Shown here piece after piece: positions 622 to 37,397 of a stretch of DNA of 37,995 nt. Origin of the DNA: a bacterium (GTDB lineage Bacteria; Hydrothermota; Tepidihabitantia; Tepidihabitantales; Tepidihabitantaceae); the NCBI GenBank assembly GCA_035505375.1, contig DATJQV010000084.1, positions 1 through 37,995 of the forward strand, given 5' to 3'. Each line of letters starts with the position of its first letter. The stretch's first letter is position 1. A program made the translations under genes and the position numbers. A model generated the notes under the pieces. That model saw only the letters and a list, made by a program, of their open reading frames with translations, did not search any database and was not told the origin of the DNA.

Positions 622-2400
622 TCACCTCGTCACTACCGCCTTCTTCACGTCCCGGAAGCCGGGCGCGTCGAGACGAAGGAAGTAGATTCCGGCAGAAAGA
701 GCACCCGAAGGTAGCCTGGCCTCGTACCGGCCCGGCGAGGTACGTCCGTCGGACAGGGAACGGACGAGTCTGCCGTCGACATCGTAAATACCGAGTGACA
801 CAGGACGCGGGACATAACCCAATTCCGCCGGGGAATTGGGATTGTGTCCCAAGTCCGGCACGTCGTAACGGACAGAGAATGCGCCTCGGGCCGGATTCGG
901 GCTGACGGAGAGCGACCAGCGGAGCGGCACTTTCTGGGTTCCTTCCGCAACGCCGCCGCTGCTGAAGGTGATGACGCTGTCCGACATGTCCCACTGATGG
1001 CCGGGACCATACGCCATTACCACGATGCGGCCGGTGTCAGGGAGCACCGAAGGAGTTGGAACTACCCAGCGATAGACAGTGTCCGATCCCGGAAGACCAG
1101 TCACTATCGTTTGGAGATTCCACAGGGAGTCGAGCCTCAGGAACAGCGACAGCGAATCACAGCGCGGCGGCGAGTGGGTGGCCCAGCGGATTGGGACCGT
1201 GTCCCCGACTTTGTACGAACCGTGGGTTGGCGCCACGAGGTCGACCGCATCGACCTCGAATATCGATATCTTCCCGTTGCCTGCCAGCAGAAGCTCGTTG
1301 TAACCGTCGCCGTTCACGTCATAGACCGTGGTGGTCAGCGAGTTGAAGCCGGACGTGTCGTGATGGTCGTTCCTCCAGTCCCAGACCTTGCGCAGGTCGT
1401 TGTTGCCGAAGGCCTTGTACACCCTGACACTGTCGTATGTGGTCCAGATGCACTCGTCGATTCCGTCGCCGTCGATATCCCCGCCCGCGCTGGCCCGGCC
1501 CCAGTCGTCGCCCCCCGAATACGTGAGAGAATCCACCAGCGTGCGGGTGAATTGGTGGTTACTGCTCTCATCCTGGTACATGTAGAGGTACATTCTGTTC
1601 TGCGATGGAAGGAAGAACGATTCATAGAACTCGGGCCTGCCATCCCCATCTATGTCGGCCGTAGACCAGACGTCCGGGCCATTCTGAGGCCTGAGCGTGT
1701 CACGCCAGACCATCTCGTACTGGTCGCTGCCAGTGTCCTCCCAGACTTCGGCACCATACCAGCCAGTGGCAATCTCGTTCCTGCCGTCTTGGTTGAAGTC
1801 CCGGAAGCCGAAGTTATAACCTTCAAGCGAACCCGTCCACTTGAGTTGATTCTGGTTGTCGCCGACGTTTTCCCAGATATGAGTGCCAGTTGGGGTGGAA
1901 GCGATAATCCCCACGTGCGAGTCCTGACGGCGCATTAGGTCGGCTGGACCGGACCATGCGTAGTTATTCCCACACCGGTAGTACCATGATAGCGAGCAGG
2001 GGTAGCTGAAGCGGTCGGGACTTTCCAGCGTCATCACTATGTTATAGCAGAGACCGTGTCCCATCTCCTCGGTGCTTACGCACAAGATATCGGTCAGGCC
2101 GTCATTGTCGACGTCGCCGGCCGCATAAGGGATGGCATCCCGTACATCAACGCCAAGAGAGTCTTGGTACGCATCCGTATCCTCGTACACAAGCTTGAAT
2201 TGGTTCCAGCCTTGAAACTCCCAAATCTGGTGACCTCTGAGCTTGTAGAAGTACATATCCGGAAGTGAGTCGCGGCCGTCATCGAAGCACACAACACGGC
2301 CATCAGCATACGGTCCTGAAGGGATTCGGGCGATACGCCTCACGCTCATGCCGGTGAGCGCCGTTGCACATCCGGCCATCAAGAGAAGTAAGCGTCGCAT
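622..2400 (-). CDS. Secreted FG-GAP/VCBS repeat protein with C-terminal sorting domain
   Basis: The 592-residue product starts with a short hydrophobic signal containing MAGC (residues 8-11), which could be a lipobox although the signal would be unusually short. Five FG-GAP/VCBS-type calcium-loop motifs are visible: GDVDNDGLTDI (about 95), DFNQDGRNEI (201), DIDGDGRPEF (249), DIDGDGIDEC (308) and DVNGDGYNEL (361). They suggest an integrin-alpha-like propeller. An Ig-like segment follows at about 390-490. The last 90 residues are a Por/T9SS-like sorting domain (SVSPNPARG, YDVDGRLVRSL, AGIYFLRLDAPG). A 42-bp palindrome is inserted in frame within that domain. The gene lies 48 bp after the minus-strand gene at 2449-2925 and may be co-transcribed. 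No Shine-Dalgarno is obvious before the ATG. The biological role is unknown; it is probably surface-displayed. Confidence 0.85.
   Translation of the reverse strand: MRRLLLLMAGCATALTGMSVRRIARIPSGPYADGRVVCFDDGRDSLPDMYFYKLRGHQIWEFQGWNQFKLVYEDTDAYQDSLGVDVRDAIPYAAGDVDNDGLTDILCVSTEEMGHGLCYNIVMTLESPDRFSYPCSLSWYYRCGNNYAWSGPADLMRRQDSHVGIIASTPTGTHIWENVGDNQNQLKWTGSLEGYNFGFRDFNQDGRNEIATGWYGAEVWEDTGSDQYEMVWRDTLRPQNGPDVWSTADIDGDGRPEFYESFFLPSQNRMYLYMYQDESSNHQFTRTLVDSLTYSGGDDWGRASAGGDIDGDGIDECIWTTYDSVRVYKAFGNNDLRKVWDWRNDHHDTSGFNSLTTTVYDVNGDGYNELLLAGNGKISIFEVDAVDLVAPTHGSYKVGDTVPIRWATHSPPRCDSLSLFLRLDSLWNLQTIVTGLPGSDTVYRWVVPTPSVLPDTGRIVVMAYGPGHQWDMSDSVITFSSGGVAEGTQKVPLRWSLSVSPNPARGAFSVRYDVPDLGHNPNSPAELGYVPRPVSLGIYDVDGRLVRSLSDGRTSPGRYEARLPSGALSAGIYFLRLDAPGFRDVKKAVVTR
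809..850. repeat. In-frame palindromic element (GGGACA ... TGTCCC) inside the sorting domain
   Basis: The element starts GGGACA and ends TGTCCC. It has an inner perfect stem, CCCAATTCC (818-826) with GGAATTGGG (832-840). It is 42 bp, exactly 14 codons, and encodes GHNPNSPAELGYVP between two strands of the sorting domain. The other sorting domains in this window have nothing there. It shares its ends with two palindromes in trmFO. Confidence 0.7.
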
Positions 2401-2410
2401 GATAGTATTT

Positions 2411-2439
2411 GGTGGGGAGTCGGTGTCCGCCTCCCCGCC
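2411..2439 (-). terminator. Possible hairpin between two secreted-protein genes
   Basis: GGTGGGGAG (2411-2419) pairs with CTCCCCGCC (2431-2439) with one imperfect pair and an 11-nt loop, just after the stop codon of the minus-strand gene ending at 2449. There is no clear T-tract, so it may attenuate rather than end transcription. Confidence 0.35.
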
Positions 2440-2448
2440 ATTGTGATT

Positions 2449-2925
2449 CTACCTCACGAGCGTCGGACGTCCAGTCAAGACTTTGCCGCCAGCAGACAGG
2501 CGCACGAAGTACACACCGTCAGGCACAGCGCGACCGCGGTTGTCGGTGCCGTCCCATCGCGCGACGTGAATGCCTCTCTGGTGAGGCCCGCTTTCCAGCC
2601 GTCGCACCAATCGGCCTGATACATCATGCACGGTGATTTCAACTGGCCCATACTGCGCAAGCTCGTAGTTGACCGAAGTCCCTATGGCGAGAGGATTCGC
2701 TCGCGACGTAGATGTTGTCGGTGGAACTCCGAAAGGCATATGGCATGGGTGCCCTGCCGGCCCCAGCGGGTCCAGTAGCAGGATTGTATCTGGCGCTGGC
2801 AAACCCGACCCGACGCTCGCGGCAAGGCATATCGCCACGGCGCAGATGGTCAGTCTCAGATTCAGTGCGTTTTTGTTTGCAGTGAGGTGACGGCCGAACA
2901 GACAATGAGCACGCTCAAGTAGCAC
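2449..2925 (-). CDS. Short exported protein that is mostly a sorting domain
   Basis: The 158-residue product begins at a GTG preceded by AGGTGG. A hydrophobic stretch at residues 25-40 (LTICAVAICLAASVGSG) looks like a signal peptide after a long n-region, so a later start is possible. After about 45 residues of low-complexity Pro/Thr sequence comes a complete Por/T9SS-like sorting domain (VHDVSGRLVRRL, RWDGTDNRGRAVPDG, VYFVRLSAGGK). There is almost no cargo between signal and sorting domain, so this may be the remnant of a longer secreted protein that lost its passenger. It could also be a true small surface protein. It reads into the FG-GAP gene 48 bp downstream. Confidence 0.65.
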   Translation of the reverse strand: MLLERAHCLFGRHLTANKNALNLRLTICAVAICLAASVGSGLPAPDTILLLDPLGPAGHPCHMPFGVPPTTSTSRANPLAIGTSVNYELAQYGPVEITVHDVSGRLVRRLESGPHQRGIHVARWDGTDNRGRAVPDGVYFVRLSAGGKVLTGRPTLVR

Positions 2926-3105
2926 GTTCCACCTGCCTTTCGATCTACCACTTCATGCCGCTCCGCGCCTCGCGCAACCACGCGGCGCTCATCGAGCGGA
3001 ACCAATCCCCGGAAATGCACGCGGGAGTCTAGAAGGGAATGCTATATCGGTCAAGACGGCATGGAATCTGCCGGGGAGACAATCAACCCGCCGAGAATTC
3101 AGTAC

Positions 3106-3780
3106 TTAGCGAAGGCTGTGAAACAGACCTGGCCACTTCAAGCATGCAGGCCGGGTCCTTCGGCCGCACACCTGCTCGACCATGCGAACGAACGCGAACG
3201 CACCGAATGGCTTGCCCGTTCTCAGGCACTGCTCCATGGCGAGCACAAACGTCTTGTCCTCAGGTGACTCAAGCCAGGCATGCCACGGCCCCGGCAGAGG
3301 AAGTCGGCCAAGCGTCGCAGTCAGGAGCCCGCGAGCAAGTAGACCCGAATGTTCGTCCGCGCTATTCAGCCAGAACTTGTCATCCGGCCTGGCATCACGT
3401 TCCTGCACCGATGCGATGTCCACGTATCGCAGTACCGACCTGGAGACTTCGTCCGAGAACGGGCAGCAGTTGTAAGTGCGTTGCCAGTGGGGCCCGACCT
3501 GATTGTGAATCTGATTGAACCGCCGGACGAAGGAGCGGTCCGCGTTCAGGAGGGCGAGGCTGATCGTCCGTGAGTGCGCCGGAATAACGACCAAGAGCGT
3601 CCGGTCGGCGAGGATGTTGTACCCGCAGAGCCCAATCCCGTATCTGTAGAGGCTATCACGGAGCATACCAAGGGAGATCTGTCGGTCACCGAAGTCCATG
3701 GAGGCGTGCCGGTCGTAGCGTGCCCGCTGTTCGACGAGATGGAACGCTCCTGGCACTTCGATCCGGGCGATGTGGCTCAC
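3106..3780 (-). CDS. REP-associated tyrosine transposase-like protein (Y1_Tnp fold), eroded active site
   Basis: The 224-residue product follows the layout of REP-associated tyrosine transposases (RAYT/TnpA-REP). It has the opening HIARIEVPGAFHLVEQRA, then YGIGLCGYNILADRTLLVVIP where the family normally has Y-x-x-M-P-N-H-x-H-L-L-x-x-P, then RRFNQIHNQVGPHWQRTYNCCPF and RYVDIASVQERDA where the family has R-Y-x-x-x-N-P-V-R-A. The metal-binding HUH histidines are replaced by Asp-Arg-Thr-Leu-Leu, so single-strand nuclease activity looks lost. It starts at GTG 3780; the ribosome site is weak. It may be a domesticated or decaying copy. Its presence is notable because palindromic elements of unknown mobility occur in flanking genes. 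Confidence 0.7.
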   Translation of the reverse strand: MSHIARIEVPGAFHLVEQRARYDRHASMDFGDRQISLGMLRDSLYRYGIGLCGYNILADRTLLVVIPAHSRTISLALLNADRSFVRRFNQIHNQVGPHWQRTYNCCPFSDEVSRSVLRYVDIASVQERDARPDDKFWLNSADEHSGLLARGLLTATLGRLPLPGPWHAWLESPEDKTFVLAMEQCLRTGKPFGAFAFVRMVEQVCGRRTRPACLKWPGLFHSLR

Positions 3781-4214
3781 GGTGCCTTGGCCACGTCAGC
3801 CATTGAAACGCGGGGTCGGGGATCGCGCTCTTCGCCTGACTCCAGGCAAGAGATGGCATGCCTGCGCGGGCAACCGGTGCGGTCAGGACTCACATCGCGC
3901 TCCCCACTCAGATCGAACTTCACCAAATGCGCCGAGAAGGCTGCGGCGGCGGGGAACCCATTCACCCGCCGTGATCGGCGTAGACGCCAGATTTTGACAA
4001 CTCTGCACGCGATGTCAAGGAAACACTCAAGGGAACTGGGGCAGTCACCTATTACGGAGCGATGTCAAGGCGCGCAGCGCGGCCGGTGGCCGCGAGTGAC
4101 CAGGTTCCAGTAACCAGTCCGTGAAGTCGGCCAACGATGCACTGTCCGACATGGGCCTCAGAGGTCAATGTCGGACGGTTTCTGCCGATCCAACGCAGAC
4201 GGCCCGCGACAGGC
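3781..4214. other. Intergenic region with one clear inverted repeat
   Basis: No convincing gene is present between the divergent RAYT-like gene and trmFO. The clearest structure is a perfect 9-bp inverted repeat, GTCCGACAT (4144-4152) and ATGTCGGAC (4168-4176), around a 15-nt spacer, about 40 bp upstream of the trmFO promoter. It could be an operator or part of an older repeat. No function can be assigned. Confidence 0.4.
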
Positions 4215-4242
4215 TTGCCGCCTGCCCCGTTTCGTCTATGCT
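4215..4242 (+). promoter_or_regulatory. Candidate trmFO promoter, leaderless geometry
   Basis: TTGCCG (4215-4220) and TATGCT (4237-4242) are spaced 16 bp apart. A GTG follows the -10 box after six bases. Both boxes match consensus at four of six positions, so the call is moderate. It gains weight because other genes in the window show the same geometry. Confidence 0.4.
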
Positions 4243-4248
4243 TAGCCT

Positions 4249-6000
4249 GTGAGCACGCAGCAGTTGCCCTCACCGAGGGAAGCCCCTCACCCTAACCTTC
4301 TCCACTCAAGCGGGGCGAGGGGGAATGTGGTGCAAGGGAGAGAGAGCAGGGAGGTCAGCGTCATCGGCGCCGGGTTGGCCGGGTGCGAGGCGGCGCTGCA
4401 GTGTGCGCGTCGCGGTGTCCCGGTGCGACTCTACGAGATGCGGCCGACGAAGATGACGGAGGCGCACCAGACCGGCGACGTGGCCGAGCTCGTCTGCTCC
4501 AACTCGCTGAAATCGGACGAGCCGGAGAATGCGCATGGTCTGCTCAAGGCGGAGTTGCGGATACTGGGTTCGGTTCTGCTTGAATGCGCTGAGCGCGCGC
4601 GGGTTCCGGGAGGCAAGGCGCTGGTGGTGGACCGGCGACTGTTCTCGACCGAGGTGCAGTCCGAGTTGTCACGCGCCGGGGTAAGCGTCGAGCGGGTCGA
4701 GGTTAGTTCATTGCCGGTCGCAGACTCGCTATACCGTCCGCGATTCGGGCTGTCCGACCCGCACCAACCCACGGTGGATCTCGGGACTGACGTTGATCGT
4801 TCATCGTTCATCGTTCATCGTTCGTCAGGACGCGCCGACGATGTTACTGTCATCGCCACTGGACCGCTGACCTCGTCACTCATGGCTGATGCGCTGCAGG
4901 CGTTGCTCGGGACGGAGCACCTGTTCTTCTACGACGCAATCGCGCCGATAGTTGAAGCGGATTCGTTGGACAGGTCTCGGGTCTTCGAGGGTTCTCGCTA
5001 CGGTGCGGGATCGGACTATTTGAACTGCCCGATGACCGAAGAGGATTACGACCGGTTCATCACGGCGCTGCTGGAGGCGGAGCTGCATCCGCTGCATGAG
5101 TTTGAGGAGAACGCCTTGGGAAAACAGGGGACAGTCCCTCAGAGCGCCTGCGTCGAACTCGGCGCGGGACAGTCCCCGTTTTCCGAGACCCATGAGCAAG
5201 GACTAGGGACCAAGAACAAAGAACCCAGGACCTTCTTTGAAGGTTGTCTGCCGGTCGAGGAGATTGCACGCAGAGGCAGGCTGGCGCTGGCGTTCGGTCC
5301 GATGAAGCCGGTTGGGCTGGTTGATCCGCACACAGGTATGAGGCCATTCGCAGTGGTTCAGCTCCGGCGCGAGAACGCTGAAGGCACAATGTACAACCTG
5401 GTTGGTTTCCAGACGCGATTGAGGCAGGGAGAGCAGGAGCGCGTGTTCAGGACGATTCCGGGCCTTGAGCACGCCGCGTTCTTGCGCTTCGGCAGCATTC
5501 ACCGCAACACTTTTCTCGACTCGCCGAGGCTGCTGTTGCCGACGCTGCAGGCCAGAGCAAGACCGGAATTGCTCATTGCCGGTCAGTTGACCGGCGTCGA
5601 AGGCTACGTGGAATCAATTGGTGCTGGACTGGTTGCGGGAATCAACGCAGCGCGCCTGGCCAGTGGCGGCGAGCCCCAGAAACTGCCGCGGGAGATGATG
5701 TTGGGGAGTTTGCTGGCTTGCGTCAGCGGCGGCGATTTGGCGAAGCAGGCCGAAGTGGGGACAGCCCCCGTTTCGGTGAGCTCGGCGCTCGCTGTCGGAC
5801 AGTTGCGAAGCGTCGCGGATGTGTCCCCATCTTTCCAACCGATGAACGCGAACTTCGGGTTGCTGCCGCCTCTCAGTGCTGGCACAGGACACGCTCATGC
5901 CCCTCGGCTGCGAGGGCGCGACAAGCGCCGGGCGATGGCCGAACGGGCACTAGCCACAGCCCGCGAGTTTGCCTTGACTCTCGTGGATAAAAGAGGATGA
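4249..6000 (+). CDS. trmFO: Methylenetetrahydrofolate-tRNA-(uracil-5-)-methyltransferase TrmFO, with inserted repeats
   Basis: TrmFO uses FAD and methylenetetrahydrofolate to make 5-methyluridine at position 54 of tRNA. Hallmarks are the dinucleotide fold (VIGAGLAGCEAA), MRPTKMTEAHQTGDVAELVC, SNSLKSDEPENAHGLLK, VIATGPLTS, GSRYGAGSDYLNCPM, FEGCLPVEEIARRG, FGPMKPVGL and FQPMNANFGLLPP. At 583 residues it is about 130 longer than typical family members. The excess sits in four places: an N-terminal extension of about 35 residues, and segments at roughly 4720-4845, 5113-5240 and 5745-5838. The internal ones contain heptad repeats or palindromes. The frame stays open throughout and the core motifs are intact, so the enzyme is probably functional. 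The start is either GTG 4249 (leaderless promoter just upstream) or GTG 4327/4330 after GAGGGGG, which would remove most of the N-terminal extension. Confidence 0.93.
   Translation: MSTQQLPSPREAPHPNLLHSSGARGNVVQGRESREVSVIGAGLAGCEAALQCARRGVPVRLYEMRPTKMTEAHQTGDVAELVCSNSLKSDEPENAHGLLKAELRILGSVLLECAERARVPGGKALVVDRRLFSTEVQSELSRAGVSVERVEVSSLPVADSLYRPRFGLSDPHQPTVDLGTDVDRSSFIVHRSSGRADDVTVIATGPLTSSLMADALQALLGTEHLFFYDAIAPIVEADSLDRSRVFEGSRYGAGSDYLNCPMTEEDYDRFITALLEAELHPLHEFEENALGKQGTVPQSACVELGAGQSPFSETHEQGLGTKNKEPRTFFEGCLPVEEIARRGRLALAFGPMKPVGLVDPHTGMRPFAVVQLRRENAEGTMYNLVGFQTRLRQGEQERVFRTIPGLEHAAFLRFGSIHRNTFLDSPRLLLPTLQARARPELLIAGQLTGVEGYVESIGAGLVAGINAARLASGGEPQKLPREMMLGSLLACVSGGDLAKQAEVGTAPVSVSSALAVGQLRSVADVSPSFQPMNANFGLLPPLSAGTGHAHAPRLRGRDKRRAMAERALATAREFALTLVDKRG
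4794..4828 (+). repeat. TCATCGT heptanucleotide repeat translated within trmFO
   Basis: Five 7-bp units (TGATCGT, TCATCGT three times, TCGTCAG) lie in frame and encode DRSSFIVHRSS. Typical TrmFO proteins have only a short loop here before the V-I-A-T-G-P-L motif. A related run lies at 18214-18234 inside the YVTN gene. Confidence 0.7.
5119..5184 (+). repeat. In-frame palindromic element in trmFO, first copy
   Basis: Left arm 5119-5138 and right arm 5166-5184 are reverse complements over about 19 bp, apart from one extra A and one A/T difference. The core is GGGGACAGTCCC / GGGACAGTCCCC, flanked by GGAAAAC / GTTTTCC. The interior adds GCGCC / GGCGC pairing. The 66-bp element is 22 codons long and separates the HEFEENAL segment from FFEGCLPVEE, which are nearly adjacent in typical TrmFO. 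Confidence 0.75.
5198..5232 (+). repeat. AAGGACC-type heptanucleotide repeat translated within trmFO
   Basis: Five units of 7 bp (AAGGACT, AGGGACC, AAGAACA, AAGAACC, CAGGACC) follow the palindromic element directly and belong to the same insertion. Related heptads make up the inverted array at 32127-32238. Confidence 0.6.
5757..5828 (+). repeat. In-frame palindromic element in trmFO, second copy
   Basis: The segment begins GGGGACA (5757-5763) and ends TGTCCCC (5822-5828). It is 72 bp, 24 codons. It lies between GSLLACVS and FQPMNANFG, which are about ten residues apart in ordinary TrmFO. It shares CTCGGCGC and GGACAG words with the element at 5119-5184. Its internal pairing is weaker than in the first copy. 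Confidence 0.55.
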
Positions 6001-17980: not shown

Positions 17981-19327
17981 TTACCTCGCTATTACGACTC
18001 TGCGCACGGCTTGTGCTTGATCCTGCGCTTGGGCCTCTTTCACAAAGTACACACCGGGTGCGAGCTGACCGACGTCATTCGCGCCCGGGTTCAGATCCAG
18101 CAACCTCCGACCCTCAATGTCGAGCAGGCTTGTGGCCTGCGGCTTGCGGCTTGAGGTTTCCGGCAGGAACAGGACTCCGCGAACGATGGTCGGGCCCGGA
18201 CTCGGCGTTCCGCGCTCATCGTTCATCGTTTCCTCAACTCCTGCCGGCATGCTGTCCCGCAGGACCGCGACCATCCCTTGTTCCTTGTCGGCGACATAGA
18301 CCCGGTTCTGCACCGGGTTCCAAGTGAAAGCGCAAGGAGCGGGGGATTCGCCGTTGAGGTGGATTGTGCGAAGCACCTGTTCGGTCGCGCAATCGACAAT
18401 GGTCACTTCGCCAAGGGATTTGTCGGCGCAGTAGAGCTTGTTGTTAATCCGGTTGTGGCAGAGTGCGACCGCCCCGGGCACCGTGGCAATCGTAGCAGGC
18501 ACATTGTTGCTCGCGCCGTCAATCACGGTCACCGTGGTGTCGCCGGTGTTTGCGCAGTAGACCTTGTTGTCGGCCGAGTCGCAGGCGAGTGCCGCGGGTG
18601 CATATCCCGTGGCGACCGTGGTGATCACAGAGTTGCTGCCGCCGCCAATCACGGTCACCGTATTGTCACCGGCGTTCACGCAATAGACCTTGTCGCTATG
18701 CGGGTTCCAGCATAGCCCGCTGGGAATCCCGCCCACGGGAATCGTGGCGATGACGTTGTTGCTCGCACCGTCAATCACGTACGCGCTGTCGGTCGAGGTG
18801 CTGACGCAATATACCTTGTTGTCGGTCCGGTTGAAGCCGATGACTTCGGGCCACATCCCCACCACGTCGGTAGCGACCACGTGGTCGTTCGCGCCGTTAA
18901 TCACGCTCACGGACGAGCTTCCGGAGTTTGCGCAATAGACCTTGTTGCCGGTCGGATTGTAGCAAACGGCCCAGGGATAGTTCCCGACAATCACCGCGGT
19001 AATCACCGAGTCGCCCGCGCCGTCAATCACGCTCAGTGTCGTGTCGCCGTAGTTCACGACGTAGACCTTGTTGTTGGTCGAGTTGTAGCAGAGGTCGCGA
19101 GGACCGCTTCCGACAGGCACCGTGGCGAGCACGTGGTTGGCCGGGCCGTCGATTATGGTCACCGTGTTGTCGCCGCTGTTGGCGCAGTAGACCTTGTTGT
19201 TGATCGAATTGTAGCAGAGCGCGCAAGCCCCGGCTCCGGCCGGAAGCGAATCTTCAAGCCACTGCGCCCGGAGTGTGCCGACAGTCGCTGAACACAGAGT
19301 CAGGACAATGAGCAGAGACAGTCTCAT
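17981..19327 (-). CDS. Secreted YVTN-family beta-propeller protein
   Basis: The 448-residue product has a signal peptide (MRLSLLIVLTLCSATVGTLRA). About seven repeats of 42-44 residues follow, each with a core like NKVYCANSGDNTVTVIDGA and a strand such as VIATIPVG, which mark the YVTN seven-blade propeller. Such proteins often bind ligands or other surface proteins; no specific ligand can be named. The C-terminus differs from the other sorting domains here. It has PTIVRGVLFLPE, LLDIEGRRLLDLNPGANDV and LAPGVYFVKE, which I take to be a variant sorting domain. Two heptad repeats are translated between propeller and tail (around 18125-18160 and 18214-18234). ATG 19327 is preceded by AAAGGAAG; longer in-frame starts run through intergenic repeats and are rejected. 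Confidence 0.85.
   Translation of the reverse strand: MRLSLLIVLTLCSATVGTLRAQWLEDSLPAGAGACALCYNSINNKVYCANSGDNTVTIIDGPANHVLATVPVGSGPRDLCYNSTNNKVYVVNYGDTTLSVIDGAGDSVITAVIVGNYPWAVCYNPTGNKVYCANSGSSSVSVINGANDHVVATDVVGMWPEVIGFNRTDNKVYCVSTSTDSAYVIDGASNNVIATIPVGGIPSGLCWNPHSDKVYCVNAGDNTVTVIGGGSNSVITTVATGYAPAALACDSADNKVYCANTGDTTVTVIDGASNNVPATIATVPGAVALCHNRINNKLYCADKSLGEVTIVDCATEQVLRTIHLNGESPAPCAFTWNPVQNRVYVADKEQGMVAVLRDSMPAGVEETMNDERGTPSPGPTIVRGVLFLPETSSRKPQATSLLDIEGRRLLDLNPGANDVGQLAPGVYFVKEAQAQDQAQAVRRVVIAR
18125..18160 (-). repeat. GCGGCTT-type heptad repeat translated in the YVTN gene
   Basis: The plus strand reads CAGGCTT, GTGGCCT, GCGGCTT, GCGGCTT, GAGGTTT in 7-bp steps. Read on the minus strand it encodes part of SSRKPQATSLLD inside the C-terminal domain. 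The same DNA motif occurs near the 5' ends of three fibre genes. Confidence 0.65.
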
Positions 19328-19364
19328 GTTGCTTCCTTTCATCAGAGCGGTACCGTTCCAAGAA

Positions 19365-19393
19365 ACGTTAGTGCCCCGGTATGGGGAAGTCAA
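19365..19393 (-). promoter_or_regulatory. Weak candidate promoter of the YVTN gene
   Basis: TTGACT (19393-19388) lies 17 bp from TAACGT (19370-19365) on the minus strand, 38 bp upstream of the ATG. The -10 matches consensus poorly. Confidence 0.3.
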
Positions 19394-19453
19394 GGCGGAA
19401 GGACAGCCGGAAAACCGCAACAGAGCCGCCAGGAGCGCCGGCGCTACGAACTG

Positions 19454-19488
19454 CATTCTGACTTCTGGTTTCTGACCTCTGAATTCTG
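19454..19488. repeat. TTCTGNN heptanucleotide repeat
   Basis: Five 7-bp units (CATTCTG, ACTTCTG, GTTTCTG, ACCTCTG, AATTCTG) lie in the divergent intergenic region between the YVTN gene and the exported protein at 19593. Confidence 0.7.
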
Positions 19489-19520
19489 AGCTGTTCAATA
19501 TCTCCTGCCTGTGCGTCTCA

Positions 19521-19548
19521 TTGACGTCCTTTTCGACCGGTATAGAAT
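19521..19548 (+). promoter_or_regulatory. Promoter of the exported protein gene at 19593
   Basis: TTGACG (19521-19526) and TAGAAT (19543-19548) are spaced 16 bp apart, with each box one base from consensus. The start codon is 44 bp downstream and has a good ribosome site, so this unit is not leaderless. Confidence 0.6.
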
Positions 19549-19592
19549 TCGCTCGTGTCAATGTCTGCGGTTGATCGCGACGAAAGGAGCGC

Positions 19593-20585
19593 ATGAAAAG
19601 AATTCCTGTGGTCATTAGCATGTTTGTTCTCGCCTGCGGCATCCTTGCCGCCGACGAGCAGCCGGGCTTCCGCAATACCAACCTCAAGGTCGTCATTTCC
19701 GTGACTGGCGCCGACGAGTATGATCTGGACGCGATTGATTACGACGACCCGACAGTATCTGAGGGCCTGCTCGAATGCCTGAAGAGCGACGGTGCCGCCG
19801 ACGGCGTCACCTTCACGGAGGCGAACGGCGAGCTACCGCATCTTCGCATTGACGTGGCGTGGTCATACGCGACACAGGGCACGGTACAGATTTCGGCAAC
19901 CGCGAGTGTCTCAGGACTCGGACGGGGGCACCTTTTCGACGCGAGCAGCGGTCAAGCGCCGTTCACCGATGGTTACGATGCTACCAAGGCCCTGGCCGAC
20001 GACATCTACCGATGGATTCACCAGGGCTGGACCTACGGCGGGACGCCGCAATCATCCTATGTACCTCCAAGCTACAACTACGGTAGCTCCGAACAACGGT
20101 TCGGTGTTTTCGGCGTGGGCTTCTCGCTTGGCCGGGGCGCAGGGCTATTTGCAGGCTATGCCTCTTTCCAGCCCCTTGACCTGCTCGGCATCGAGTTCGA
20201 CTACGGCACGCAGCCCTGCGCCACGCCGGTCGGGCCGGGGCAGATTACCGTGTGGCCCGCCATGCTCAGCGCCAAGCTGCAGGTCTTTGGCGGCAAGCGC
20301 TCGCGGTCGAGCCAGCTCGGCTTCGAGTTGGCGGCCGACCGGGCCGACCAGGCAGGATGGGGCGCGTACGGCGCGTTCCTCATCAGGCTCAGGCCGGCCT
20401 CGGGCTTCAATGTGGACTTCAATCTCGGGATGGGTCACTTCTTCAATCAGCCGTTGGCCACTAAGATCTACGAGGAACGCCTGGAGCAGAAGCTCGGCCA
20501 GCCGATGACTGACCTCGGTCTGGGGTTCATCGGGCAGATGCCCAACTATCTCGTGGGCGGCATGGGCATCTGCCTCAGCTTCTGA
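19593..20585 (+). CDS. Exported protein of unknown function, probable beta-barrel C-terminal half
   Basis: The 330-residue protein has a signal peptide (residues 1-19, ending LACGILAA) and GAAAGGAG before the ATG. Residues 25-150 include VVISVTGADEYDLDAIDYDD and IYRWIHQGWTYGG, resembling a soluble alpha/beta domain with a helix near 130-145. Residues about 165-330 are rich in Gly and aromatic residues in alternating strands (FGVFGVGFSLGRGAGLFAGY, LRPASGFNVDFNLGMGHFF) and end in MGICLSF, a terminal Phe typical of outer-membrane barrels. It has no sorting domain. I do not recognise the family. Confidence 0.7.
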   Translation: MKRIPVVISMFVLACGILAADEQPGFRNTNLKVVISVTGADEYDLDAIDYDDPTVSEGLLECLKSDGAADGVTFTEANGELPHLRIDVAWSYATQGTVQISATASVSGLGRGHLFDASSGQAPFTDGYDATKALADDIYRWIHQGWTYGGTPQSSYVPPSYNYGSSEQRFGVFGVGFSLGRGAGLFAGYASFQPLDLLGIEFDYGTQPCATPVGPGQITVWPAMLSAKLQVFGGKRSRSSQLGFELAADRADQAGWGAYGAFLIRLRPASGFNVDFNLGMGHFFNQPLATKIYEERLEQKLGQPMTDLGLGFIGQMPNYLVGGMGICLSF

Positions 20586-23803: not shown

Positions 23804-26800
23804 CTAGTGCTGCGGATGTTCTAGCTGCTGCTTCATCTTCTCGTACTTCGCCCTGCCTGCGGCGGTGCGGAAATCGATGCCCTGCGCCTTGCCTTCACGC
23901 ACGAGCTGGTCCATGCAGCCGGCAAGGAAGTCGTCGTCGAGCATCCGTCCGGCCAACTGACCGGTCTTGGGTTGCTCGACCGGCATCATCCGTCGTGTCG
24001 CTTCGGCCGACACGTCCTTCCGCTCGCCGGTCACCTGCCAGAATACCTTGATGCCAGCCCTGCCGCCAATAGTGAACCGGTTGCCGGACACCTCCTGCGC
24101 CACGTACACATCCGAGCTGCCCACGCCGGTAAGCTGGACCATCGGGTTGCGGTTGAGCGCATCGAAGTAGTCGGGCAGGGTGACGTCGGCGCGGCCGCTG
24201 GCATTGAGGACGACGCTGCCGCGGTAGATGTTGAGCATCTCCGGCCCTTCGATGAAGTAGTGGTTGAGTATCTTGCCCTGCGGGTCGAGCGGGTGGTCAA
24301 TTGTGAACGAGCCGGACGCCTTGGACAGCACGCCGACGCGAGTCTGGTTCGAGGCCGTCGCGTACTGGCCGTTGAACGCGGCAGAGTTGGTGTAGCTGGA
24401 AGGTACGACCGATTGACTGCCGACGGCAAAGCTGTAGTCGGCGGCGGCGATGTTGTAGTAGCCGCCGCCCACGGTGGCGTGTTCGCCGCTGGCGGTGTTG
24501 GAGTAGCCACCGCCCACGGTGGCGTACCAGGCGCTGGCGGAGTTGGATTGGCCGCCGCCCACGGTGGCGTACAAGGCGCTGGCGGAGTCGTGGTCGCCGC
24601 CGCCCACGGTGGCGACGCCGCCGCTGGCGATGTTGTGGATGCCGCCGCCCACGGTGGCGTAGTTGCCGCTCACGGTGTTGTGGAGGCCGCCGCCCGCGGT
24701 GGCGTAGCCGCCGCTGGCCGTGTCATTGGAGCCGCCGTCAGCCGTCGCGTATTGTCCGCTGGCGAGGTTCTGGAGGCCACCGCCCACCGTCGCGTATTGT
24801 CCGCTGGCGGTGTTATTGTAGCCGCCACCCACCGTCGCGCAGGATTCGTTGCTGGCGGTGTTGTACACGCCGCCGCCCACCGTCGTGTAACTGCCGCTGG
24901 CGGAGTTGTCGAAGCCGCCGCCGACCACGGCAGAAAGGCCGCCGGCGGTGTTTTCAACGCCTCCGCCCAACGTCGCGTAACTGCCGCTGGCGGTGTCGCC
25001 GTATCCGCCGCCGACTGTTGCGTACATCGCCTCGGCTCTATCAGTGTAGCCGCCGCCGACCGTCGCGTATTGTCCGCTGGCGGTATTCTGGTAGCCTCCG
25101 CCGACGAACGACCACTTGCCGATGGCTTTGTTGTATCCGCCGCCCGCGACCGCCGCGCCGCTATCGCCCGCCGCGTCGCCGGCATGGTTCTGCAGACCAG
25201 CGAGCACCCCGCCGTAGTGCGCCTGCGCGGTGTCTCCCAGCCCGCCGGCAACCGTGGCATAGTTGCCGCCGGCGGTGTTGTCGTAGCCGCCGGCCACGGT
25301 GCAGTAGGAGTAGTTCTGGCTAGCCGCCCCGGTGGCGCTGGCAGTGCCGAGGTTCACGTGGGTGTACCGATTGGTGCCAATCAGCGTGTCGCCGGCTCCG
25401 CCTCGGGCAAGGCCGAGGTTGTGGACGGTCCACAGTATGCTGTCATTCGGCGAAGCCCGGCGCACCCAGGCGTTGTCGCTGGCCCCCGCGCTGTCGTTGC
25501 GCGGGGCCCAAGCAGTGCCGGTCCACTTGATGACCTGTCCGGTGGCGGCGCCGGCATGAGCCAGCTTGGCCATCGTGACGTTTGTATCGGCAATCTTGGC
25601 TGTCGTCACTGCACTCGTGGCAATTGTCGGATTGGGATAGGTTCCCGTCAGGTCACCGCCCGCACTGCCGCCCGGCGGCACGCCGCTGATGGTGACGTTG
25701 CTCGCATTCGTCAGTCTGCCCTTGGCATTGACCGTGAACTGACCGACCTCGGTCGCGCTGCCGTATGTCCCGGCCGTGACGCCGGAGTTGTTCAGCGTTG
25801 GGTTCGGGTACGTGCCGGTCAGGACACCACCCGCACTGTCGCCCACGTTGATGAACCGATTATCGCCCCAGGTCGTGTCGAAGCCGACAGTGCCTGAGTC
25901 GGTTATAGGATTCGGCGAGCAGACCACGCCGGTGGTCTGGACTACCTTCCTCATAGCCGCGCTGCCCATACTGTCATTCCTCGGTGCCCAGGCACTGCCA
26001 GTCCATTTCATCACCTGCCCGCTCGCCGCGCCCATCTGGCCGAGGTCGGCCGCCGCGATGGTGCCGTCGAGTATCTTGGCTGAGGTCACAGCACCCGTGG
26101 CGATGGTGGGGTTGGGGTACGTTCCAGTCAGGTCGCCGCCGGCAGCACCGCCCGGCGGCACGCCGGTAATGGTCACGTTAGCCGCGCCGGTCACCTGGCC
26201 TTTGTTGTTGACCGTGACCTGGGAAACCTGTGTTGCGCTGCCGTACGTACCGGCTGTGACGCCGGTGGTCGCAAGGTCAGCCGCCGCTATCGTGGCGTCG
26301 AGTATCTTCGCGGATGTAACCGTGCCCGTGGCAATCGTCGGGTTGGGATAGGTACCGGTCAAGTCCCCACCCGCTGTCTGCGCTTCGTTCACGTATCTCG
26401 TGTCTCCCCAGGTCGAGTCAAACCTCACCGTGCCCGAGTCGGTAATCGGGTTCGGTGAGCAGACTACACCCGTGGCCTGCACCACCTTCCGCACTGTTCC
26501 GCTGCCGCCGCCGCTGCCCGCGCTGTCGTTGGCCGGCGACCAGTTCGAGCCGTTCCATTTGATGACCTGCCCGGTCGCCGCACCGGTGCGCGCAAGCTTG
26601 GCCATCGTCACGGCCGTATCCTTCAGTTTGCCCGTGGTTATAGTCGTGTCCCGGATGTCGGCCGAGATCACCGTGCCATCGACTATCATCTCACCGGTAA
26701 CCGAATTCGCCTGGTTGGTCCGCACGAAGCCCGTGGTGTCTTTGCCCTGCAGTGTCTTGGCGTTCGAGAGGGCGGTCGTGTCCTTGCCCTGCAATAGGTC

Positions 26801-32126: not shown

Positions 32127-32238
32127 AAGTACAAAGGACCAAGTACTAAGGACAAAGCAAAGCCGAAACGGGAAAGTCCGAAACCTGACTTGTACTTGGG
32201 CCTTTCCCGTCTTGCTTAGTCCTTTGTCCTTGGGACTT
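32127..32238. repeat. Inverted array of AAGGACC-type heptads
   Basis: The left arm (about 32127-32175) is built of 7-bp units such as ACAAAGG, ACCAAGT, ACTAAGG, ACAAAGC and ends in ACGGGAAAG. The right arm (about 32191-32238) carries the reverse complement (CTTTCCCGT, CTTGCTTAGTCCTTTGTCC). The arms match over about 40 bp with few differences and could form a long hairpin between the radical SAM gene and the DUF4321 gene. The rest of this 256-bp gap holds only the next promoter. Confidence 0.7.
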
Positions 32239-37083: not shown

Positions 37084-37170
37084 GGAGGGCTAGCCTAATT
37101 GGTAAGGCAGCAGACTTGAAATCTGCCGACTCAGCGATGGGTCTTGCGGGTTCGAATCCTGCGCCCTCCG
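37084..37170 (+). tRNA. tRNA-Ser (anticodon UGA)
   Basis: The acceptor stem GGAGGGC (37084-37090) pairs with GCCCTCC (37163-37169). The anticodon arm is GCAGA-CTTGAAA-TCTGC with TGA in the loop. A long variable arm and the GGTTCGAATCC T-loop segment mark a class II serine tRNA. No CCA is encoded. Confidence 0.95.
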
Positions 37171-37307
37171 CTGCTGCGGAGTGCGGGCGCGGCAGTTCCG
37201 CGCCGGGCCGGATGAACCGGCCCCGGATTCGCCGTCAGACGGTGCGCCTCCTGCGCCCTCCGCAAGCGGAATAGGGCCAATGGGCCCTATAGGACCTATA
37301 CCGAGCC
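37171..37307. other. Spacer between the two serine tRNAs, with a repeat and a hairpin
   Basis: The 15-bp sequence TCCTGCGCCCTCCGC at the 3' end of the first tRNA (37157-37171) is repeated at 37249-37263. ATAGGGCC (37271-37278) and GGCCCTAT (37283-37290) form a perfect hairpin with an AATG loop before the second tRNA. The hairpin may be a processing or termination signal; the repeat may be a tRNA gene remnant. Confidence 0.5.

Positions 37308-37397
<90 letters not shown>

Follow-up and report, generated by a model that had tools for sequence, protein, structure and literature searches.

Short palindromic repeats inside protein genes have been described before. The Rickettsia palindromic elements (RPEs; Ogata et al. 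2000; review, PMC2229807) are dispersed palindromes, 105 to 146 bp in size, found as translated in-frame insertions in a large number of conserved protein genes, and activity was demonstrated for one enzyme that carries an RPE, Gmk (PMC2229807). Two of them, RPE-4 and RPE-6, are also CGTC-tagged REPs (PMC3733652). Genes of Rickettsia, Opitutus terrae, and other organisms, some of them tRNA related, also contain GTAG- or CGTC-tagged hairpins of the REP type, at times two in one gene, and loops were proposed to be the tolerant sites (Di Nocera et al. 2013, PMC3733652). TIRYTs are Y1 transposase genes lying within terminal inverted repeats of the consensus GGGGWSAS (PMC3733652; subclass 2.1, PMC6006769), and some of these TIRs form moderately abundant families of dispersed repeats (PMC3733652). 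REPINs are short palindromic nonautonomous repeats tied to RAYT genes (PMC3116915), and REPs are known to be extragenic. Finally, the mitochondria of Nematomorpha carry perfect inverted repeats of up to 284 bp inside coding genes (PMC6649704).

In the window (the whole 37,995-nt stretch of DNA that was analyzed) and its genome, palindromes have entered many unrelated protein genes without breaking the frame, as in the case of RPEs. The earlier note's comparison with RPEs holds to this extent, but it does not extend to size or, apparently, to sequence: the cores here measure 39 to 87 bp, compared to the published 105 to 146 bp. Furthermore, no dedicated transposase is known for RPEs, whereas the ends found here resemble resident transposase genes, and the host bacteria are unrelated. 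Because of this resemblance to the ends of the resident Y1 transposase genes, the closer structural kin are the RAYT/TIRYT-associated palindromes. The GTAG/CGTC tag was absent from the flank logos of the two main families, whose termini are GGGACA, and, unlike in the GTAG/CGTC REP work, empty sites were available here from comparison of sister species. The Nematomorpha case concerns an organelle and no transposase-linked family; the likeness lies in the inverted repeats inside coding genes.

In-frame palindromes are known already (RPEs and intragenic GTAG/CGTC REPs); the novel points are the families, the resemblance of their ends to those of transposase genes, the history of insertion traced species by species, and the density. 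The literature search, which left most subscription journals outside its reach, found no description of in-frame translated elements with TIRYT-type ends. The reading that we favor, at a probability of about 80%, is that these are nonautonomous palindromes of the TIRYT/RAYT type that insert into genes and are kept only in frame and in loops. RPEs have so far been a rare curiosity whose mover is not known. Here, larger genomes (2.6 to 4.7 Mb) appear to carry abundant translated palindromes in AlaS, LysS, MnmG, and TrmFO, candidate transposases are present in the same genomes, and gains can be ordered across six species. How selfish DNA turns into protein sequence thus becomes testable by comparison and biochemistry.

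Palindromes of the window and their dispersed families

The earlier note had proposed three inverted repeats with GGGACA/TGTCCC ends, all located within open reading frames, and had suggested folding them as RNA. The host genes were as proposed, and two of the three elements proved to be exact hairpins; the third did not. Element A (809-850, plus strand) is a family-1 palindrome with a 42-bp core, GGGACATAACCC...GGGATTGTGTCCC, and forms an exact GGGACA...TGTCCC hairpin with an RNA fold of -29 kcal/mol (z -5.9 versus shuffles). It lies in frame close to the 3′ end of a minus-strand gene (622-2400) encoding an FG-GAP repeat protein with a C-terminal sorting domain, where its minus-strand reading is LGHNPNSPAELGYVP, and the same insert is present in the paralogous gene of locus L250 (C24). 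Element B (5119-5184, plus strand) is a family-3 palindrome, GGAAAACaGGGGACAGTCCC...GGGACAGTCCCCGTTTTCC, that lies in frame in trmFO and is read as GKQGTVPQSACVELGAGQSPF. It forms an exact 66-bp hairpin (z -5.2), with a covariance-model match at an E value of 5e-19. Element C (5757-5828, plus strand), in the trmFO loop preceding FQPMNANFG, has the end words, but it is a weak palindrome which as a whole folds scarcely better than shuffles (z -1.7), and it was among the own-genome matches of neither covariance model (family 1 or family 3). Since its last 18 bp (5810-5827, plus strand) are identical to the 3′ end of family 2, GCGTCGCGGATGTGTCCC, element C is best seen as a mosaic or eroded element. 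A further palindrome, ACTGTCCGACATGGGCCTC/GAGGTCAATGTCGGACGGT, was observed in the intergenic DNA upstream of trmFO (4141-4179); its sequence differs from all three families.

Further copies, for which the earlier note had recommended a genome search, are plentiful. The own genome contains 83 matches to the simple pattern GGGACA...TGTCCC, compared to 9 for the reversed control, and the covariance models detected ∼60 strong family-1 and ∼70 family-3 copies in its 3.6 Mb. Family-1 cores are 39, 40, 42, or 43 bp long with the structure GGGACATGACC-stem-GGATCGTGTCCC, family 2 is 48 bp long, and family 3 (GAAAAYGGGGACAGTCCC...ACAGTCCCCRTTTTC) ranges from 54 to 87 bp in measured copies. The outer stem of the family-1 hairpin is almost fixed, and the inner stem varies on both sides together: 7 of the 17 pairs show double changes (53 cells compared to 17.7 in shuffles), 99.4% of the cells are paired, and conservation extends to a T-G mismatch and a bulged A. 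In the flank logos, family 1 is preceded by GGCGC and followed by AAGCC, and family 3 is preceded by AAAA and followed by TTTT. Among the 147 genomes of the phylum compared, many of them fragmented assemblies, family 1 was present in 12, all belonging to one family and with each of the six species of the genus represented; family 3 was present in the genus plus a single further genome. Each genome of the genus holds dozens of these tiny mobile hairpin repeats, many of them within working genes, some of which are essential for protein synthesis.

These numbers bear on whether the elements are ordinary expansion-prone loops that happen to contain palindromes. The weak folding of element C would fit such an origin, as would the simple tandem inserts that occupy the same loops. 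However, the dispersed copies, which number in the dozens, are nearly identical, and show covariation, contradict it for elements A and B, and we give it almost no credence. Elements A and B would instead be copies of small mobile palindromes (∼40 to 90 bp) that have spread within this bacterial family.

Placement in genes and reading frame

Some trends were apparent in where the copies lie. First, 29 of 55 family-1 copies were within coding-scored ORFs, compared to 8 of 30 family-3 copies. The coding-scored-frame test is also passed by 53% of positions drawn at random from these loci, so the family-1 figure means no avoidance of genes rather than enrichment, and family 3, with its 8 of 30, is depleted in genes. 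The extragenic placement known for REPs therefore does not apply to family 1, and insertion would occur into intergenic DNA and genes alike. Second, when the two flanks were scored independently, the frame was the same on both sides in 17 family-1 copies and apparently shifted in 4. Read out, these four look like gene junctions; at one of them, what we take to be a ribosome-recycling-factor gene ends and an undecaprenyl-diphosphate-synthase gene starts. No true frameshift was found among these copies. Third, family 1 is open in five of the six frames, the sixth being closed by a TGA and used by no genic copy, and family 3 is open in nearly all six. Being GC rich, the elements are free of stops in nearly all frames. 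Finally, the 42-bp genic family-1 copies, including the one in the window, lie in a single codon phase in 12 of 12 cases (e.g., L226, 2506-3410), which reflects either target preference or selection.

The lengths of 42, 66, and 72 bp had led the earlier note to stress that all elements are multiples of three. This is not an intrinsic property, and we rejected length as evidence, since genic family-1 cores include 39, 40, 42, and 43 bp. What keeps the genes open is a net insertion that, with flanking bases counted in, is a multiple of three.

An alternative is that the ribosome bypasses the hairpins or that they are removed at the RNA level. The byp elements of yeast mitochondria are hairpins that interrupt genes and are bypassed, and strong hairpins do occur here inside essential genes. 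Yet bypassing requires neither frame keeping nor stop-free inserts, whereas 17 family-1 copies keep one frame across both flanks, no true frameshift was seen, and the only family-1 frame closed by TGA goes unused in genes. Bypassing or RNA-level removal is thus very improbable, and translation of the inserts remains the better reading, judging by the open frames and conserved flanks.

The hosts of the families include AlaS (three copies), LysS, RtcB, KdpC, ApbE, an NSUN methyltransferase, UgpC, MnmG, HypD, and AspA. They remain full members of their protein families across the inserts, for instance, AlaS at 796 bits (cutoff, 457), LysS at 631 (468), and MnmG at 642 (525). Under the nonautonomous-palindrome reading, insertions that keep the frame in permissive surface loops would survive and be translated as ∼14 to 25 extra residues, the others would be purged, and the effect on the host protein would probably be near neutral. 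For annotation, stretches such as ECGSAAPAL or GTVPxxxxxGTVP should be treated as mobile-element peptides, not domains. A second type of sorting tail (VRGVLFLP...LLDISGR...GANDV) was observed at L171, L191, L234, and L246 and at positions 17981 to 19696 of the window; its loop contains family-1, family-3, or other inserts, varying by gene.

Insertion history in related species

The cleanest insertion history is that of AlaS, which contains three family-1 copies in the window's genome. One of these is common to sister species G001, and a family-3 insert is found in the same loop in G003; the remaining two are present only in the window's genome. Empty sites were seen in relatives at 82 to 89% AlaS identity, and the net insertions, with flanking bases counted, are multiples of three. 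Plain empty sites were also found in relatives for RtcB, AspA, and a beta-lactamase-fold protein, the last being empty in four of the four relatives aligned, and empty or alternative sites were found for HypD, NSUN, KdpC, MnmG, and LysS. In hypD (L229, 1925; C25:35925), a family-3 element is nested within a family-1 element, and the site in sister species is empty or holds another insert.

These comparisons help to decide whether the genic copies are relics, that is, old and immobile insertions derived from a few ancestral events and gene duplication. Consistent with that idea, one AlaS insert is common to two species, and element A is found in two sorting-tail paralogues; the copies in a given loop may go back to old, inherited insertions and need not be moving at present. 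Against it stand the many single-species inserts whose sites are empty in such close relatives, the beta-lactamase-fold site that is empty in all of its aligned relatives, and the nested element in hypD. A relic origin for the genic copies as a whole is quite unlikely.

The trmFO gene (4249-6000, plus strand) gives a second view of this history. It encodes methylenetetrahydrofolate--tRNA-(uracil-54-C5)-methyltransferase in a 583-aa frame (NCBIfam NF003739, 554.9 bits), with the true start probably near codon 30. Besides elements B and C, it contains another lineage-specific in-frame insert (4795-4827, plus strand), a short tandem repeat GATCGTTCATCGTTC... read as DRSSFIVHRSS, and, immediately 3′ of element B, a dispersed repeat GAGCAAGGACTAGGGACCAAGAACAAAGAACCCAGGACC (5194-5232, plus strand) read as EQGLGTKNKEPRT. 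Sister species have EPGTKNEEPGT-like inserts at the loop of this repeat, and element B is missing or substituted in the TrmFO of relatives. Overall, the same loops in the TrmFO proteins of the genus are filled differently in each species and from several kinds of repeats, and the sister-species TrmFO alignment that the earlier note had called for, like one of AlaS, showed proteins either without the same segments or with different ones at the same loops. The same note had named the presence of these TrmFO segments in distant phyla as a finding that would speak against its reading; in distant bacteria such as Paenibacillus, the TrmFO loops are short and lack the inserts. Where complete, TrmFO frames in the genus are 522 to 601 residues long, compared to ∼440 to 447 in members of the same bacterial family that lack family 1 (e.g., G006, G009, G012, and G013). 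Alignment and AlphaFold bear out the placement of the TrmFO elements in short loops. The AlphaFold model of the window's TrmFO (25 sequences) has a confident core, with low confidence mainly at residues 1 to 29, 159 to 194, 294 to 332, and 497 to 525, which correspond to the N terminus and the three insert regions; pLDDT falls below 50 only at residues 1 to 29, in the insert regions, and in a few short stretches. In this predicted structure, the inserts are low-confidence loops off an intact core.

A bolder reading is that transposase-linked palindromes have become adapted to protein genes, making mobile DNA a standing source of new loops in this lineage. The open frames, the non-avoidance of genes by family 1, the one-phase target preference, and the way in which sister species have had identical enzyme loops colonized again and again would all belong to it, and we put it forward as a tentative, rather doubtful extension.

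Nonpalindromic simple repeats were likewise observed to enter genes in this lineage. For instance, the GGACCAAGTACTAAGGACAAAG-type dispersed repeats occur in frame in trmFO (5194-5232) and as an inverted pair near 32.1 to 32.2 kb (32127-32238).

Y1 transposases and the ends of the elements

The own genome contains five Y1_Tnp genes, four of which are flanked by inverted repeats containing GGGAC, and family-wide, ∼20 of 35 Y1 transposase loci have inverted repeats bearing GGGAC[A/G]. Examples of such locus ends are AATGGGGACGCTACCC and AAAATAGGGACACTTCCCATTTT, compared to AAATGGGGACAGTCCC of family 3; GGGGAC[A/G] ends and A-rich flanks are common to family 3 and many Y1 genes. The TIRYT motif GGGGWSAS is present at the inverted ends of family 3 (GGGGACAG) and of several family-2 copies (GGGGACAC), and family 1 fits it partly, having mostly three terminal Gs rather than four. 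The similarity to ends that bound a Y1 gene is graded: very close for family 3, matching for the ECGS-type TrmFO insert of three sister species, the ends of which match transposase locus L310, and inexact for family 1. Two possible differences from TIRYTs were noted. In-frame translated copies of TIRs are not described in the relevant passages of PMC3733652 and PMC6006769, and subclass 2.1 has a C-terminal HTH domain, whereas none was detected by Pfam in the transposases tested here, in which Y1_Tnp was the sole Pfam domain and NF047646 scored below the cutoff.

Taken together, the GGGAC-bearing loci, the ends and flanks of family 3, the L310 ends, and the TIRYT consensus make mobilization in trans by Y1 enzymes most likely. 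The likely movers would be the resident RAYT/TIRYT-type Y1 (HUH, IS200/IS605-related) transposases acting on the hairpin ends, a proposal that is weakest for family 1. No transposase gene with exact family-1 ends was found among the Y1 loci, nor were family-1 copies found at transposase loci. The lack of an exact partner for family 1 would suit a different mover, such as a DDE transposase that mobilizes MITEs, or slippage during host replication, but the ends and A-rich flanks that family 3 has in common with many Y1 genes argue otherwise, and such a mover is unlikely. No target-site duplication could be proven for the elements; transposases of the IS200/IS605 type are not known to make any.

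A degenerate Y1/RAYT-like transposase frame (3106-3780, minus strand) adjoins trmFO; it aligns with the RAYT of L019 over 206 aa at 24% identity (E value of 6e-15). It is open over 224 codons with its HUH motif replaced, it had no Pfam match, and a scan of its flanks found no element-type inverted-repeat ends. With the HUH motif lost and no such ends, it was rejected as an active transposase; it could be domesticated or merely decaying.

Two other features of the window were observed. A 1,202-codon frame contains 15 copies of a 45-nt periodic repeat (24366-25133), and two adjacent tRNA-Ser genes with anticodons TGA and GCT are located at positions 37084 to 37397.
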